NCBI RefSeq assembly: GCF_003029735.1
Contig: NZ_KZ686268.1
Location: 1,227,769-1,291,768, forward strand
Direction of reading: 5' to 3'
DNA length: 64,000 nt
DNA from: Pedobacter yulinensis
GTDB taxonomy: Bacteria > Bacteroidota > Bacteroidia > Sphingobacteriales > Sphingobacteriaceae
Part shown: positions 3,656-53,551 of the stretch, piece after piece
Layout of the letters: each line of letters opens with the position of its first letter
Numbering within the stretch: position 1 is the stretch's first letter
The notes under the pieces: model-generated
The model's database searches: none
What the model was told of the DNA's origin: nothing
Seen by the model: the letters and a program-made list of their open reading frames with translations, nothing else
Position numbers and translations under genes: made by a program

Positions 3656-5116
3656 ATGATTACAGGTATACAGGTGTACAACACGCTGACACGCAAGAAA
3701 GAAATTTTTGAGCCCGTAAATGCGCCCCATGTGGGTATGTATGTTTGCGGTCCTACCGTTTACAACGATGTACACCTGGGCAATTGCCGCACCTTCATTT
3801 CCTTCGATGTTATTTTTCGCTACCTGCGTTATGCAGGCTATAAAGTACGTTATGTCAGGAACATTACCGATGCCGGGCATTTAGAGGGCGACAGGGACGA
3901 GGGCGATGACAAATTTGCCAAACGCGCCAAGCTTGAACAACTCGAGCCTATGGAGATCGTGCAAAAGTACACACTCGGTTTCCGGGATGTGATGCGTGTG
4001 TTCAATACCCTGCCGCCAAGCATTGAGCCTACTGCCACCGGGCACATCATTGAACAGATCGAAATGATCAAGGTGATCCTGGCCAACGGTTTCGCCTACG
4101 AAGTGAACGGAACGGTATACTTTGATGTTGAAAAGTACAGTCAAACGTACAACTATACAATTCTGACCAACCGGAACCTCGATGACATGCTGGCCAACAC
4201 ACGCGAACTGGGCGGGCAGGACGAGAAACGCGGCCGGCTGGATTTTGCGCTTTGGATCAAGGCCAAGCCAGAAACACTGATGAAATGGGTATCGCCCTGG
4301 GGCCTCGGTTTTCCGGGCTGGCACATTGAATGCTCGGCGATGAGCGCCAAATACCTGGGTGATACCTTTGATATACATGGCGGTGGAATGGACCTTGCCG
4401 CTACGCACCATACCAACGAAATTGCACAGTCAGAAGCCTGTAGCCACCAGCAGCCGGCAAAGTACTGGATGCACACAAATATGCTGACCGTAAACGGGGC
4501 CCGCATGTCTAAATCGGCGGGCAACGGCTTCCTTCCGCACGAGCTGTTTACCGGAACACATCCCCTGCTTAAAAAAGGGTACAGTCCCATGACGGTCAAG
4601 TTCTTTATGCTTCAGGCACATTACCGGAGCACGCTCGATTTTAGCAATGAGGCCCTTGAAGCTTCAGAAAAAGGATACCGGCGGCTCATGAATGCCCTGG
4701 CGCTGCTGCACAAAATCCAGGCTTCAAATGCGACCGACTTTCAGATCCTGCCGCTGCGCGAGCGCTGCCTGCAGGCCATGAACGATGATTTCAACACACC
4801 GGTCGTCATTGCTGAGCTTTTTGAAGGCGTACGCATTATCAATACGCTTTACGATGGTAAAGGAAAGATCGACGCGCAGAACCTGGACCAGTTGAAACAA
4901 TTGATGCAAGACTTTGTTGTTGACGTTTTCGGGCTTCAGGAAGAGGAGCAGGGTGACAGCGGCTTCAAAGAGGTACTCGATATGGTGATCAACCTGCGTC
5001 GCGAGGCCAAAGAAAATAAAGACTATGCAACGTCTGATAAGATCAGGATCGGCCTGCAGCAGATGGGCATCCAGCTAAAAGACAGCAAAGAAGGTACAAC
5101 CTGGAGCCGCAATTAA
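3656..5116 (+). CDS. cysS: Cysteinyl-tRNA synthetase
   Basis: A 486-residue class I aminoacyl-tRNA synthetase of normal length that charges tRNA-Cys with cysteine in the cytoplasm. The HIGH-type motif is HLGN after CGPTVYNDV, the zinc-binding cysteine and histidines appear in YVCGP, HIECSAM and THHTNEIAQSEA, and the KMSKS loop is MSKSAGNG. The C-terminal anticodon-binding helical domain ends in a TWSRN-type tail typical of CysRS. It stands alone, with its own -7 box directly upstream. The ATG at 3656 gives the standard N-terminus IQVYNTLTRKKE; no Shine-Dalgarno sequence precedes it. Confidence 0.97.
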   Translation: MITGIQVYNTLTRKKEIFEPVNAPHVGMYVCGPTVYNDVHLGNCRTFISFDVIFRYLRYAGYKVRYVRNITDAGHLEGDRDEGDDKFAKRAKLEQLEPMEIVQKYTLGFRDVMRVFNTLPPSIEPTATGHIIEQIEMIKVILANGFAYEVNGTVYFDVEKYSQTYNYTILTNRNLDDMLANTRELGGQDEKRGRLDFALWIKAKPETLMKWVSPWGLGFPGWHIECSAMSAKYLGDTFDIHGGGMDLAATHHTNEIAQSEACSHQQPAKYWMHTNMLTVNGARMSKSAGNGFLPHELFTGTHPLLKKGYSPMTVKFFMLQAHYRSTLDFSNEALEASEKGYRRLMNALALLHKIQASNATDFQILPLRERCLQAMNDDFNTPVVIAELFEGVRIINTLYDGKGKIDAQNLDQLKQLMQDFVVDVFGLQEEEQGDSGFKEVLDMVINLRREAKENKDYATSDKIRIGLQQMGIQLKDSKEGTTWSRN

Positions 5117-12589: not shown

Positions 12590-14944
12590 TTAATTATTTC
12601 TTTTTGCAGCGCTGTCTGCCTGTTTTTTCAGTGTGCTTCCCGGGCGGACAATCGGCGGCTCAGTTCTGCCGGTTGTATCAGGAATGAGGTTTGGCAGCTT
12701 TCGTACCGGCGCAGCGGTCGTGTCTTGCAGTGTGGCCGGGCGTGGCCTGGTACCTGTGCCGCTTGCCGGCGCAGCTGTTGCAGGCGTTGTAACACCCGGT
12801 TGCCGGGCCGGTTTGCCGGCAGTGCCTGGTTTTGCCTGGGTTTGGGCGCGGGCTCCAGGTTTTTTCGCCGCCGCCGCTTTACTTGTCTTTTTCTTTGGCG
12901 CCCTGATGGCATCGAGCTTTGATTTAGGCCGGTCTTCAGGTTTCCAGATAAATCCTTTTAAAAAAGATTCTTTGGGGGCTTCTTCTACAGGATAAAGTAC
13001 ACCCTCGGGCTTTTTGATGTTGACGATCTTCTCGATCTCGTTATCTGCGAAAGAAATTTTCAGCCGGCTGCCTACCGTCTGGTTCATTTCCTTGTAAAGT
13101 TTCGTGCTGTCGTCCTGCGTGAAGTAAATACTTTCTGCATTGCCGTCAACGAAAAGCGTGTTGAGTTTGCCTTTGCTGAAGAAACCGGTTAATATTTTTC
13201 CCTTGATCTGGTTAAACCGCAGGGAATCTGGCGGGGTATTAACCAGGAATGCCGACTGGATAACCTGTACAGAATTAACCTTTTTATTGACAAACTGGAT
13301 ATGAATGGTATCGCCGGTTTGCTGCGATCCCTGCGACCAGAGTATGGGGTTCTGGTAACAGCGAAGTGTGGAGTCTGCGCTGGTATAAAAAAGTGAGTCG
13401 GCCTTGGCCTGCATATCGCTTTTGTATACCCTTACATTGTGGTAGGCGTTGATCACCCGTGTGCGCATAGTATCCAGCGGCGTAACCGGAGCTTGCTTTT
13501 TGGGCTGTGCGGCCGCATTAGCGGCAGATTGGGTCACCGTTCGGGCCGCCCGGCCTGCTTTTCTGATCTCGGCACGCGTAAGGCCATTTGGTTTTGATGC
13601 GACAGAATCGGCACGGGCCTTTGCTGCTGTTCTGACCAGGCTGTCTGCCGCCTTGCTGCGCAGCAGGCTGTCTGCCGCTGCTTTTAACTTCACTGAATCT
13701 GTTGCCAGGGCGGCTGGGCTCGCCACTTCCGGCCTCGCTCCTGCAGGTTCGCCCGCTTTTTCGGCCCGGCGCTTTCGGCGCCGCTCTGCCGGCGTTTCTT
13801 TTTTCGGGGAAGAAGTTTTTGCCTGCTCAACCGAAGGAGCGGTTGCTGGTGCGCTGGCTTTTTCACCCGGTGCTGACATCGGAGGCCTTACAGCAGCCGT
13901 GCTGTCACTTTGTGACTCGGCACCGCCGCGCTCTTCGAAATCCAGTTCATTGTTTGCCTTTACGGATATCTTTGGTAATAATTTGAGCGTTTTCTGAAGC
14001 ACCATCTGTGTTTCCAGGGTATCAGCGCCCATCCAGAGGCTGTCGAGGGTCATCTTCTTGCCAACCTTGACAGAATCTGATGTTTCTATGCCGAAATACG
14101 CATTTTTGGTAACGAGCGTGCGTTCAGTTTTTTTAAAATACTCCCCAACCTCACCGCGCAGCAGGGTTTTGTCTGTTGTGTCCCGGAAAAAGATATTCCC
14201 AACCGCCTTGCCATATCCGGCTTTTCCGTCCCAGGTCAGGCTGTCGCCCTTAAGCGACTTGCTGCCGTTTTTATACAGGTTCCTTTTTCCAAAAAAAGCT
14301 TTTTCAGAAAGCGTATTGTAGAGTCCGTTTTCAGTGTACAAATTATCGTCCTTGCCCTTGATATTTGTCGGGCCATAAAAATAGGTCCATTTGCTTTGCG
14401 TATTGTACCGCATCGTATCTGAAGTAATCGTACTCTGCGGCGTTTTGACCAGGACATTGTAGCGAAAATACGAGTCATTGGTGTTGGCAAAGTAATAGCC
14501 ATTGCGGCTGGTCACCGTTACGTCCTTGTTTACGATTTTCCCGCCGTTGGTGTATGTGCCGATTTTACTCACCATGTTGTAATCGAGCACATTGGTGGTC
14601 AGTACCGATTCCCGCTGCACCAGGCGTACATTATTGGTCAGGTGTGCCTGTTTTTTGTTTCCGTCGTAATGAAGCTGGTCAGAAAAGATATTAACGGTGT
14701 CGGCCTGATTAATGTGAACATTTCCAAAGGCTTCGAAGACATTTTTTTTCTGGTAAAAATGTGCGCTGTCTGCAGTCAGAATAGCATTGTCCTGTCTGAA
14801 CGTAGGTTTGCCCAACCTGACCAGGTCCTGTGCAGGCACGCCATTGATAATGGTATAACTGGTTAGCTGTATGGGCGATTTGCTCTGCGCAAGGAGAATT
14901 CCTGGCAACAAGATCAGGCAGAGCAGAAAAGGCAACTTTTTCAC
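12590..14944 (-). CDS. OstA/LptA-like exported protein, very long, low-complexity linkers
   Basis: A 784-residue protein with a signal peptide (cleavage near LLAQS). Residues 20-330 form repeated beta-strand segments of the OstA/LptA type (the NVHINQADTVNIFSDQLHYDG pattern), as in the periplasmic bridge that moves lipopolysaccharide to the outer membrane. An Ala/Ser/Lys/Arg-rich linker (about 340-490) separates this from a second OstA-like segment (about 490-660), and a Pro/Ala/Lys-rich tail ends the protein. Bacteroidota commonly carry such large OstA-like proteins. The start is GTG at 14944; no ATG precedes the signal peptide. The -7 box ends 4 nt before it. It is divergent from tilS. Confidence 0.82.
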   Translation of the reverse strand: MKKLPFLLCLILLPGILLAQSKSPIQLTSYTIINGVPAQDLVRLGKPTFRQDNAILTADSAHFYQKKNVFEAFGNVHINQADTVNIFSDQLHYDGNKKQAHLTNNVRLVQRESVLTTNVLDYNMVSKIGTYTNGGKIVNKDVTVTSRNGYYFANTNDSYFRYNVLVKTPQSTITSDTMRYNTQSKWTYFYGPTNIKGKDDNLYTENGLYNTLSEKAFFGKRNLYKNGSKSLKGDSLTWDGKAGYGKAVGNIFFRDTTDKTLLRGEVGEYFKKTERTLVTKNAYFGIETSDSVKVGKKMTLDSLWMGADTLETQMVLQKTLKLLPKISVKANNELDFEERGGAESQSDSTAAVRPPMSAPGEKASAPATAPSVEQAKTSSPKKETPAERRRKRRAEKAGEPAGARPEVASPAALATDSVKLKAAADSLLRSKAADSLVRTAAKARADSVASKPNGLTRAEIRKAGRAARTVTQSAANAAAQPKKQAPVTPLDTMRTRVINAYHNVRVYKSDMQAKADSLFYTSADSTLRCYQNPILWSQGSQQTGDTIHIQFVNKKVNSVQVIQSAFLVNTPPDSLRFNQIKGKILTGFFSKGKLNTLFVDGNAESIYFTQDDSTKLYKEMNQTVGSRLKISFADNEIEKIVNIKKPEGVLYPVEEAPKESFLKGFIWKPEDRPKSKLDAIRAPKKKTSKAAAAKKPGARAQTQAKPGTAGKPARQPGVTTPATAAPASGTGTRPRPATLQDTTAAPVRKLPNLIPDTTGRTEPPIVRPGSTLKKQADSAAKRNN

Positions 14945-14948
14945 GTTA

Positions 14949-14956
14949 CAAAGTTA
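14949..14956 (-). promoter_or_regulatory. -7 box TAnnTTTG in front of the OstA-like gene
   Basis: On the minus strand this reads TAACTTTG and ends 4 nt before the GTG start, predicting a leaderless mRNA. It sits inside the 52-bp gap shared with the divergent tilS promoter. Confidence 0.5.
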
Positions 14957-14961
14957 GTTGT

Positions 14962-14992
14962 TTGCGGAGCCATTTTAAATTAAATATTTTTG
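14962..14992 (+). promoter_or_regulatory. tilS promoter, TTG-N20-TATTTTTG
   Basis: Both Bacteroidota elements are present: TTG at 14962-14964 and TATTTTTG at 14985-14992, 20 nt apart. The box ends 4 nt before the tilS ATG, so the predicted start of transcription falls on or next to the start codon. Confidence 0.68.
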
Positions 14993-14996
14993 ACAC

Positions 14997-16337
14997 ATGC
15001 TTCCGCTCAGCGCGTTCCGTAAGTTTATTGCCGATAAGCAGCTTTTCAGCCCCGAAGAGCGTGTGCTGCTTGCAGTAAGCGGCGGGCGTGATTCGGTTCT
15101 CATGGCCCGGCTGTTCCACGCAGCAGGGTATAACTTTTCGATCATACACTGCAATTTCGGCCTGCGGGGGGCTGAGTCTGAACGGGATGAGGCCTTTGTT
15201 TGCCGGCTGGCAGCCGAGCTTGGTGTTCCATTTTTAAGCAGGAAGTTCGATACACGCGCTTATGCCAAAGAAAAGCAGCTTTCTATCCAGATGGCTGCCC
15301 GCGAACTCAGGTACCAATGGTTCGAGGAACAGCGTGTTGAGGGCGGTTTTGCCTGTATTGCGCTTGCACAACACCAGACAGACCTGGTCGAAACGGTGCT
15401 CATTAACCAGTTACGTGGTACCGGTATTAGCGGCATGCACGGCATCCGGTCAAAAAACGGAAAGCTGATCCGCCCGCTGTTGTTCTTAACTGCTGCAGGC
15501 ATACACGAAATTGCGCGAAGCTGCGGCATGGGCTGGGTAGAAGACAGCTCGAATGCCAGCACCGATTATCAGCGCAACAAGATCCGTCAAGAAGTGCTGC
15601 CAGTGTTGCGCCAGATCAATCCCTCGCTCGAAGCAACCTTTAGCGACAACGCGGCGCGGATGGAACAGGCAGAGCGGTTGCTCGGCAATACGGTCGCGGC
15701 GTTACGCAAGTCGTTTATTCATGACGGCCCCCTACAAAAATTGCCCCTGGAACTGGTTAGAAGCCTCGACCCGCAAGAGCTGCTTTTGTTCGAACTGCTG
15801 AGGCCTTTCGGCTTTCATGCAGAAGCTGTGACGCGCATCATCAGCGTACTGGATGCGCCGAGTGGCCGGCAATTCTTCAGCTCCGGCCACCGCCTGATCA
15901 AGGACCGTAACCACCTGGTCATTGAACCGGTTCAGATAGCCGGAACAACAACATGGATCCTGCAGCCTGACGATGAGGCCGTTATCGCCACCGGTTGGAC
16001 GGTCAGCCAGCATGCAGGCCTTCCCGGACAGCCACCCGACGAACAGCATGTTGCCTGGTGCGACCGCGATAAACTTGTGTACCCGCTTACGCTGCGGTTC
16101 TGGCAGCAGGGCGATCGTTTTCGGCCGCTGGGTATGAAAGGATTCAAAAAGGTCAGCGATTTTTTTGTAGACCGGAAACTCAGTCTTGCCGAGAAAGAAA
16201 GGGTACCTTTGCTGGTAAACGGCAACGGAGACATTGTCTGGGTTGCAGGCATGCGCCTGGACGACCGCTACAAAGTGGGCCCAGGCACAGAAAAAGTTAT
16301 TATATTCGAATTTAAAATTAATCCAGTTGGAAGGTAA
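14997..16337 (+). CDS. tilS: tRNA(Ile)-lysidine synthetase
   Basis: A 446-residue enzyme that attaches lysine to the wobble cytidine of the CAU-anticodon tRNA-Ile, switching it from Met to Ile decoding; it is essential in most bacteria. The PP-loop ATP-binding motif is SGGRDS (residues 28-33). Further TilS motifs, such as HCNFGLRG, LAQHQTDLVETVL and the EDSSN segment, are clear. The C-terminal half holds the TilS substrate-binding and C-terminal domains ending in GDRFRPLGMKG and KVSDFFVDRK. Length is normal. The next gene overlaps its 3' end. Confidence 0.95.
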   Translation: MLPLSAFRKFIADKQLFSPEERVLLAVSGGRDSVLMARLFHAAGYNFSIIHCNFGLRGAESERDEAFVCRLAAELGVPFLSRKFDTRAYAKEKQLSIQMAARELRYQWFEEQRVEGGFACIALAQHQTDLVETVLINQLRGTGISGMHGIRSKNGKLIRPLLFLTAAGIHEIARSCGMGWVEDSSNASTDYQRNKIRQEVLPVLRQINPSLEATFSDNAARMEQAERLLGNTVAALRKSFIHDGPLQKLPLELVRSLDPQELLLFELLRPFGFHAEAVTRIISVLDAPSGRQFFSSGHRLIKDRNHLVIEPVQIAGTTTWILQPDDEAVIATGWTVSQHAGLPGQPPDEQHVAWCDRDKLVYPLTLRFWQQGDRFRPLGMKGFKKVSDFFVDRKLSLAEKERVPLLVNGNGDIVWVAGMRLDDRYKVGPGTEKVIIFEFKINPVGR

Positions 16338-48625: not shown

Positions 48626-48633
48626 TATTTTTG
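48626..48633 (+). promoter_or_regulatory. -7 box TAnnTTTG in front of the SprT-like gene
   Basis: TATTTTTG ends 4 nt before the GTG start at 48638, predicting a leaderless mRNA. No well-spaced -33 TTG is seen. Confidence 0.45.
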
Positions 48634-48637
48634 CAGC

Positions 48638-49267
48638 GTGAATAAAGTGATGGTCCTGGCCCAGTACATGCCCGAGGGCGCTGCACCACTCGTGGCGCGG
48701 TGGATCGACTACTTTCAGTGTGAGTTCAAGATTGCCCGGAACCGAAACACGAAACTTGGCGATTACCGCCATCCTTTTGGGAGCAAAGGCCACCGCATTT
48801 CCGTGAATCACAACCTGAATAATTATGCCTTCCTGGTAACCACCGTTCATGAGTTTGCGCATTTGCTTACCTGGAACGACCACAAGAACCGGGTAAAGCC
48901 ACACGGCGCCGAGTGGAAGCAGAATTTTAAGCGCATGATGCAGCCATTTTTCGAACTTCGTGTGTTTCCGGAAGATATTCACCGCGCCATTGACCGCTAC
49001 CTGTCTAACCCGGCAGCTGCAAGCTGCACCGATCTGCATTTGGCCAGGGCGCTGAAAAAATATGACCGGAAGAATGAAAACCAGGTGCACCTTGAGCAGC
49101 TGCCCCTGCATGCGGTGTTCTCGATCAAAGATGGCCGCAGGTTTAGAAAAGGGGAGCAGATTCGCAAAAGGTTTCGCTGCCTTTGCCTGGACAACGGGCA
49201 AATGTATTTATTCAATGCCCTGGCCGAAGTCGTACGCGGCACCGAATCGCCTGTTTCAGGAACCTGA
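48638..49267 (+). CDS. SprT-like zinc metalloprotease-domain protein
   Basis: A 209-residue protein with the zincin motif HEFAH in TTVHEFAHLLTW and the family's PHGAEWKQNF, which supplies the third ligand. The N-terminus DYFQCEFKIARNRNTKLGDYR matches SprT-like domains. The C-terminal part (about 150-209) is a beta-rich tail without the four-cysteine zinc ribbon usual in SprT. Eukaryotic SPRTN cleaves DNA-protein crosslinks; the role of bacterial SprT is unsettled. The start is GTG at 48638, directly behind a -7 box; no nearby in-frame ATG precedes it except codon 5. Confidence 0.86.
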   Translation: MNKVMVLAQYMPEGAAPLVARWIDYFQCEFKIARNRNTKLGDYRHPFGSKGHRISVNHNLNNYAFLVTTVHEFAHLLTWNDHKNRVKPHGAEWKQNFKRMMQPFFELRVFPEDIHRAIDRYLSNPAAASCTDLHLARALKKYDRKNENQVHLEQLPLHAVFSIKDGRRFRKGEQIRKRFRCLCLDNGQMYLFNALAEVVRGTESPVSGT

Positions 49268-52165: not shown

Positions 52166-53551
52166 TCAGTCTGTTTTGGTTTTCTGTTGCGCTTCCCACT
52201 GCGCAGCGAACGATTTGGGCGCTACTTCCGGCAATTCCCGGTATTTACTCCACTTCTTTTTGAAAAAGGTGCGGAGCACGAAATTCTTAATCTTTCCGCC
52301 AACAAGATCGACGAGGTTACGCTTTTGCATGCTCTTTTTCCAGAGCGTCCAGCCAAAATCTTCCACCTTGCCGTTCTTGTGTCCCTGCGCCGCATCGCGC
52401 CTGTTCAGCAGCAGCATCTTGTGGATATCGATCTTAACCGGGCAAACTTCAGAACATTTGCCGCACAGACTGGAAGCATAACTCAGGTGCTTAAACTCTT
52501 CCATGCCTTTCAGGTGTGGTGTAATGACCGAACCAATGGGTCCGCTGTAAGTCGTGTTATATGTATGGCCGCCGATGTTTTTGTACACCGGACAGGCATT
52601 GAGGCAGGCGCCGCAGCGAATGCAGTAGAGGCCCTGACGCTGGTCTTTTTGGGCAAGCAAATTGGTACGGCCGTTATCGAGCAGCACCACGTACATCTCT
52701 TCGGGCCCGTCGGTTTCGCCGGGCTGGCGGGGCCCACTTAGCACCGTATTATACACTGTCAGGTTTTGTCCGGTTCCATGGCTGGCCAGCAGGGGCCAGA
52801 AAAGGTCCAGGTCGGCCAGGGAAGGGATTAGCTTTTCAATGCCTACCACGGCAATATGCACCTTTGGGAAGGTGGTCGAAAGGCGGGCATTCCCTTCATT
52901 TTCGGTGAGCGCGATGCTGCCCGTATCGGCGATCAGGAAATTGCCGCCGGTGATGCCCACATCGGCTGTAAGGTATTTATCCCGCAGCAATTCGCGTGCT
53001 TTCTGCGTCAGCTCTTCGGGCGTAGCCGTTAGCGGTGTGCCGAAACGCTCATGAAACAGCGCGGCAATCTCTTCCTTACTCAGGTGCATGGCCGGTGTAA
53101 CGATGTGGTAGGGCGGCTGGCCGAGCAACTGGACAATGTATTCTCCGAGGTCGCTTTCGAGCGATTCGACACCATTTTTTTCGAGGAACTCATTCAGATG
53201 GAGTTCTTCTGTGGTCATTGATTTCGACTTGATCACCGTTTTGGCATTCTTGCGACGCAGAATGTTCAGGATTTCACGGTTGGCTTCTTCCGCATCATTT
53301 GCCCAGATCACTTTGCCGCCGCGACGCTGAAAATTCGCCTCGAATTCTGGAAGGAATTTATCGAGATTTTCCATGACGCGCCACTTGATCACATGGGCCT
53401 TCCGCTTGGAGGCTTCCAGGTTTTCGAAACGTGAAAGACCTTTTGCGACGGCCAGGTCATACTTGCCAATGTTGTAATTGATGGTATGGCGGTGTTTCTC
53501 ATCAAAAGCCTTGTCGTCGGCCTGTACCAAAAAATCTTCAGCAATGCTCAT
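52166..53551 (-). CDS. LutB-like iron-sulfur protein (LUD domain)
   Basis: A protein of about 461 residues with an N-terminal LUD domain (about 70-290, including SKSMTTEELHLNEFLEKNG and GITGGNFLIADTGS) and two 4Fe-4S sites: C310, C313, C316 and C320 in CIRCGACLNACP, and a second set in CGKCSEVCPVKID. LutB is a subunit of the LutABC L-lactate oxidation complex, but lutA and lutC are missing here. I start at the ATG at 53551, with a -7 box 5 nt upstream; the longer frame begins inside the promoter. It precedes the fused E1 gene by 4 nt. Confidence 0.9.
   Translation of the reverse strand: MSIAEDFLVQADDKAFDEKHRHTINYNIGKYDLAVAKGLSRFENLEASKRKAHVIKWRVMENLDKFLPEFEANFQRRGGKVIWANDAEEANREILNILRRKNAKTVIKSKSMTTEELHLNEFLEKNGVESLESDLGEYIVQLLGQPPYHIVTPAMHLSKEEIAALFHERFGTPLTATPEELTQKARELLRDKYLTADVGITGGNFLIADTGSIALTENEGNARLSTTFPKVHIAVVGIEKLIPSLADLDLFWPLLASHGTGQNLTVYNTVLSGPRQPGETDGPEEMYVVLLDNGRTNLLAQKDQRQGLYCIRCGACLNACPVYKNIGGHTYNTTYSGPIGSVITPHLKGMEEFKHLSYASSLCGKCSEVCPVKIDIHKMLLLNRRDAAQGHKNGKVEDFGWTLWKKSMQKRNLVDLVGGKIKNFVLRTFFKKKWSKYRELPEVAPKSFAAQWEAQQKTKTD

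Follow-up and report, generated by a model that had tools for sequence, protein, structure and literature searches.

Divergent tilS and OstA-like genes and their promoters

The window, which is the whole 64-kb stretch of DNA analysed, contains a 52-bp intergenic gap (14945-14996) between two divergent genes. On one side lies tilS (14997..16337, + strand), encoding tRNA(Ile)-lysidine synthase with the Pfam domains ATP_bind_3 and TilS_C, and on the other an OstA_2/LptA-like LPS-transport gene (12590..14944, - strand; Pfam OstA_2, 5.6e-55). The start codon of tilS is ATG (14997-14999) and that of the OstA-like gene is GTG (14944-14942), from which the N-terminal signal peptide MKKLPFLLCLILLPGILLAQ is read. 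The -7 box of tilS, TATTTTTG (14985..14992, +), is separated from the ATG by 4 nt (ACAC), and the -7 box of the OstA-like gene, TAACTTTG (14949..14956, -), is separated from the GTG by 4 nt (TAAC). The original prediction had described this divergent gap of 52 bp with boxes 4 nt before the ATG and the GTG, and the sequence agrees with it base for base. An in-frame TGA (14991-14993) overlaps the -7 box in the tilS frame, and an in-frame TAA (14956-14954), 12 nt upstream in the OstA frame, is part of the OstA box. These in-frame stops rule out a start codon further upstream for both genes. Furthermore, the N-terminus of TilS (M1-L2) was invariant in an alignment of 12 relatives.

Both TATTTTTG and TAACTTTG match the sigma-ABfr -7 box TAnnTTTG with non-G middle positions (TAHHTTTG) and are conserved in relatives. 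An AT-rich tract, TTTTAAATTAAA (14973..14984, +; the -18 region), lies directly 5' of the tilS box, and an A-rich tract, CAAACAAC (14957..14964, -), which is mostly CAAAAAAC in relatives, lies directly 5' of the OstA box. Base counts over 70 distinct sequences brought out both boxes and both start codons, together with conserved A/T columns near -18 on the 5' side of each box; in the tilS promoter these columns span -20 to -13, and in the OstA promoter 90-100% of the 70 sequences have A at -19 to -15. An AT-rich motif at -18 is also present in the promoters of F. johnsoniae (PMC6847099).

In regards to the -33 region, TTTG at 14961..14964 (+) is a possible element of the tilS promoter, with a 20-nt spacer to TATTTTTG; on the opposite strand, the same bases fall in the OstA promoter's A-rich tract, and that promoter has no -33 TTTG. 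The earlier statement that only the tilS promoter is complete was confirmed, as the OstA promoter lacks a TTG at 16-24 nt and has just TTTA at 19 nt. The -33 TTG claimed for tilS is present as TTTG at 20 nt and appears to add little. Among relatives, the TTTG stands 17-20 nt from the box where gaps are short and 33 nt from it in the clade with a 65-bp gap, a correctly spaced TTTG is missing from one Pedobacter clade, and no fixed -33 motif appeared in the base counts of the 70 distinct sequences. A -33 element was also considered as a hallmark of leaderless-type genes in this genome and was dropped, because a TTG at 17-23 nt was found in just 8 of 39 such genes. The -33 element is itself weak in F. 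johnsoniae (PMC6847099).

A perfect 16-bp palindrome, TTCCGAACGTTCGGAA, was rejected as a shared operator here, being absent from this genome and from the window. In one Pedobacter clade (e.g. loci L015, L026, L129, and L130), TTCCGAACGTTCGGAA lies between the two promoters as a possible operator, and in the six genomes tested it occurred once per genome, solely at the tilS/OstA locus.

Distances between box and start codon

We determined the frequency of TANNTTTG in the 64-kb window as 3.9e-4 per position and strand, at which the chance of two boxes spaced exactly in this way from two given starts is ~1e-7. No further box was found within 180 nt of either start. The window contains the pattern TANNTTTGN4RTG 5 times (1.3 expected), and the genome contains it 118 times, against 82 for the reversed pattern. 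Elsewhere in the window, TATTTTTG is followed after 4 nt by a GTG (48626-48640, +) that opens an ORF of ~210 codons reaching to 49267 and is a candidate leaderless GTG start; ATG codons of the leaderless type, with TAnnTTTG 3-6 nt before them, are also located at 3656 and 26859 (+) and at 53551 and 55710 (-).

The distances from TAnnTTTG to the start codon were counted for 988 called genes in 1.26 Mb of the genome, taken as stretches, with 29 permuted motifs as controls. The distribution was bimodal. The sharpest peak was at 4 nt, with 17 genes against 0.34 expected from the permuted motifs, and distances of 3, 5, and 6 nt were found for 8, 7, and 7 genes, respectively (controls, 0.3-0.5 per distance). 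A trough of 0-2 genes per position followed at 7-14 nt, and a second, leadered peak was located at 15-24 nt. These results indicate that the leaderless-type genes form a discrete class, and they suggest that 5' leaders of ~3-10 nt are avoided in this genome. A recognisable box lies no more than 60 nt from the start in ~170 genes, and 39 of these have the leaderless spacing. The simple gene caller prefers ATG and placed the OstA start at an inner TTG, so the candidate starts were recounted without picking one; when all were counted, a GTG with a box at 4 nt occurred 3 times against 0.28 expected.

Among 112 divergent pairs, one other double leaderless-type pair was found (C1:1026032/1026127), and the arrangement at tilS is therefore not unique in the genome. 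A further possible pair is located at C2:731139-731217.

Conservation of the layout

The original prediction had proposed an alignment of the gap across related genomes as a check. We used two partly overlapping sets, 80 named Sphingobacteriaceae genomes and 37 from the same genus, and found the layout and the box spacing kept in ~80 genomes and most of the gap not. All 30 genus loci examined first, and all 7 examined later, had tilS and the OstA gene as divergent neighbours; the OstA gene lay beside tilS in only 1 of 13 genomes of other families. The OstA start was GTG in 80/80 named Sphingobacteriaceae (Pedobacter, Mucilaginibacter, and relatives). TAnnTTTG preceded this GTG in 77 of the 80, at 4 nt (51 genomes) or 5 nt (26), and the tilS ATG was accompanied by a box in 74, at 4 nt (62), 3 nt (9), or 5 nt (3). 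The box at the usual spacing was missing from 6 of the 80 tilS loci and from 3 of the 80 OstA loci.

The gap measured 29-537 bp in nearly all relatives. In three Pedobacter genomes, the gap is just 29 bp and holds little beyond the two boxes, which are 5 bp apart, so that any -33 region would fall within the opposite gene; both 4-nt distances to the start codons are nevertheless retained. In one relative (G009, L024:465-1500), tilS and the OstA gene are separated by ~1 kb and the tilS box retains its 4-nt spacing.

Predicted transcription starts

The sigma-A box of F. psychrophilum is located at -12 to -5 (PMC9723704), and 4 or 5 nt separate the box from the start site in F. johnsoniae (PMC6847099). 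With this published spacing, which is carried over from Flavobacterium, a different order, the 4 nt between box and start codon place +1 on the start codon itself. The predicted transcription start of tilS is the A of the ATG (14997, +), from the 4-nt box-to-+1 spacing in PMC9723704, and that of the OstA-like gene is the G of the GTG (14944, -), from the spacing of its box; the latter base is G in 80/80 relatives. The claim that both mRNAs begin at the start codon thus gains support from the Flavobacterium spacing, from the conservation across ~80 genomes, and from the discrete gene class. On the basis of sequence and analogy, both genes are very probably leaderless, tilS with AUG and the OstA/LptA-like gene with GUG.

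The 52-bp gap would then hold two divergent promoters for sigma-ABfr, the housekeeping sigma factor of Bacteroidota, each of which would set +1 at the start codon, give or take one base, and so yield a leaderless AUG mRNA for tilS and a leaderless GUG mRNA for the OstA/LptA-like gene. Judging from other bacteria, ribosomes would initiate at the extreme 5' end by the known route for leaderless mRNAs. The polymerase footprints at the two promoters would probably overlap, and only one promoter could be occupied at a time. Weak structure was looked for over 50 nt from the 5' end of each mRNA, and these segments were no less structured than shuffled sequences. This result counts against the leaderless reading, as do the few relatives that lack a box at the usual spacing and the low share of leaderless mRNAs in published maps of the phylum.

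If the boxes are promoters whose starts lie 1-3 nt upstream or downstream of the predicted positions, or vary, the mRNAs would be nearly rather than strictly leaderless. Start sites at both 4 and 5 nt in F. johnsoniae (PMC6847099), the distances of 3 and 5 nt among relatives, and those of 3, 5, and 6 nt in other genes of this genome are compatible with such a shift. However, the distribution peaks most sharply at exactly 4 nt, and A and G, with which the two start codons open, are both good bases for initiating transcription; we regard near-leaderless mRNAs as unlikely, although they deserve to be kept in mind. It is much less probable that the main transcripts begin further upstream, within the opposite gene, and that the boxes are minor promoters or something else. 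TAGGTTTG, 186 nt before tilS, could serve such a transcript, but it has a G in a middle position, which is almost absent from mapped promoters (PMC6847099), and the boxes and their spacing are conserved over two large genera, whereas most of the gap is not. Least credible of all is the possibility that the GTG does not serve as the start and that translation begins further in, behind a short leader. Some relatives (loci L003, L009, L011, and L023) do have an ATG ~20 codons in; in contrast, the first ~30 codons of many Pedobacter contain no other ATG, GTG, or TTG, the signal peptide would be lost with a later start, and an untranslated GTG would not stay invariant.

Leaderless mRNAs transcribed from sigma-ABfr promoters are already known as a kind. 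Those of Flavobacterium and Bacteroides arise from TAnnTTTG promoters (PMC9723704, PMC6847099, PMC7366714), with the same box as here and presumably an identical +1 spacing, and their start codon is at or beside the 5' end, as predicted for the two genes. They are a minority in those bacteria, accounting for 5.5% in F. psychrophilum (PMC9723704), and in B. thetaiotaomicron 3.7% of the 5' UTRs are <10 nt (PMC7366714); here, 39 of the ~170 boxed genes have the leaderless spacing, and a back-to-back pair is conserved throughout the family. We did not find start-site maps of Pedobacter or Chitinophaga mentioning leaderless mRNAs in open-licence papers.

Invariant GTG start codon

We compared the GTG of the OstA gene with the A/G wobble positions of eight conserved two-fold codons (K/E/Q) by parsimony on a tree of 80 tilS sequences. 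The GTG showed 0 changes in the 80 genomes, and the comparison sites showed 6-23 A/G changes on the same tree. These results indicate that the GTG is kept beyond the neutral expectation; the contrast is large, even though parsimony was used and the comparison comprises just eight sites. In many Pedobacter, the GTG is the sole possible start within the first ~30 codons and stands directly before the signal peptide. No ATG was found ahead of the hydrophobic segment in two relatives with a longer N-terminus (loci L167 and L172).

The original prediction had called GTG unusual for a leaderless start. This holds by the standard of E. coli, in which leaderless GTG starts are reported to be non-functional, and does not hold for M. 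tuberculosis, in which they are normal and are used like ATG (PMC3898074), nor for the OstA gene, in which GTG is the rule in all relatives. GTG is thus accepted as a leaderless start in M. tuberculosis as it would be here. M. tuberculosis belongs to a different phylum, has a different promoter type, and uses ATG and GTG alike, whereas the OstA gene has GTG in every relative.

The mfd gene (L082:13764-17102, corresponding to G000:C1:613764-617102, in this genome; loci L301-L329 in relatives) is also of the leaderless type, with a box 4-5 nt before the start. Its start codon was non-AUG in 30/30 genus genomes, namely GTG (16) or TTG (14), and never ATG. In regards to hemW, the gene is of the leaderless type in most relatives, and its start codon is ATG in every relative that could be read, this genome aside. 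In the Flavobacteriaceae, where start codons were taken as the outermost candidate and are less certain, OstA_2 often starts with TTG 16-18 nt after TAnnTTTG, behind a leader of ~12 nt (loci L206, L208-L210, L213, L214, L217, L220, L253, L263, L265, and L269). The mfd genes of this family mostly start with GTG or TTG, and the box of OstA and mfd is usually 15-20 nt upstream; where mfd has ATG, the box tends to be at 5-8 nt.

Conserved weak (non-AUG) start codons reflect selection against AUG and are expected for low-abundance proteins. The codon of the OstA gene, invariably GTG and never ATG, suggests selection for weak translation initiation of this LPS-transport gene, and a GUG retained in this way would most likely keep the LptA-like protein low. 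Alternatively, the GTG may be retained because transcription requires a G as its first base, for instance to be controlled by the GTP pool. The G found in 80/80 genomes at the predicted +1 agrees with this idea, but in mfd the corresponding codon may be either GTG or TTG, and the Flavobacteriaceae often have TTG behind a leader, with +1 elsewhere. As the trait common to OstA and mfd is "not AUG", weak translation is favoured over a requirement for G as the first transcribed base, which we consider improbable. Compared with conserved non-AUG genes in general, the weak codon is here joined to a predicted leaderless 5' end in at least two genes (OstA/LptA-like and mfd).

The new detail is the invariant leaderless GUG, of a kind common to mfd. 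A wider reading, which we put forward tentatively as a real possibility, is that certain leaderless mRNAs of Bacteroidota have been selected never to start with AUG (GUG for OstA/LptA-like and GUG or UUG for mfd), that ribosomes routinely initiate there, and that the codon holds the output of low-abundance proteins at a fixed low level. Bacteroidota ribosomes use nearly no Shine-Dalgarno pairing. A leaderless pair with AUG and an invariant GUG, expressed from a single 52 bp, would be a compact natural test bed for start-codon choice.

The hemW gene of this genome (L108, near 7702, -) has a leaderless-type GTG, unlike the ATG of its relatives.
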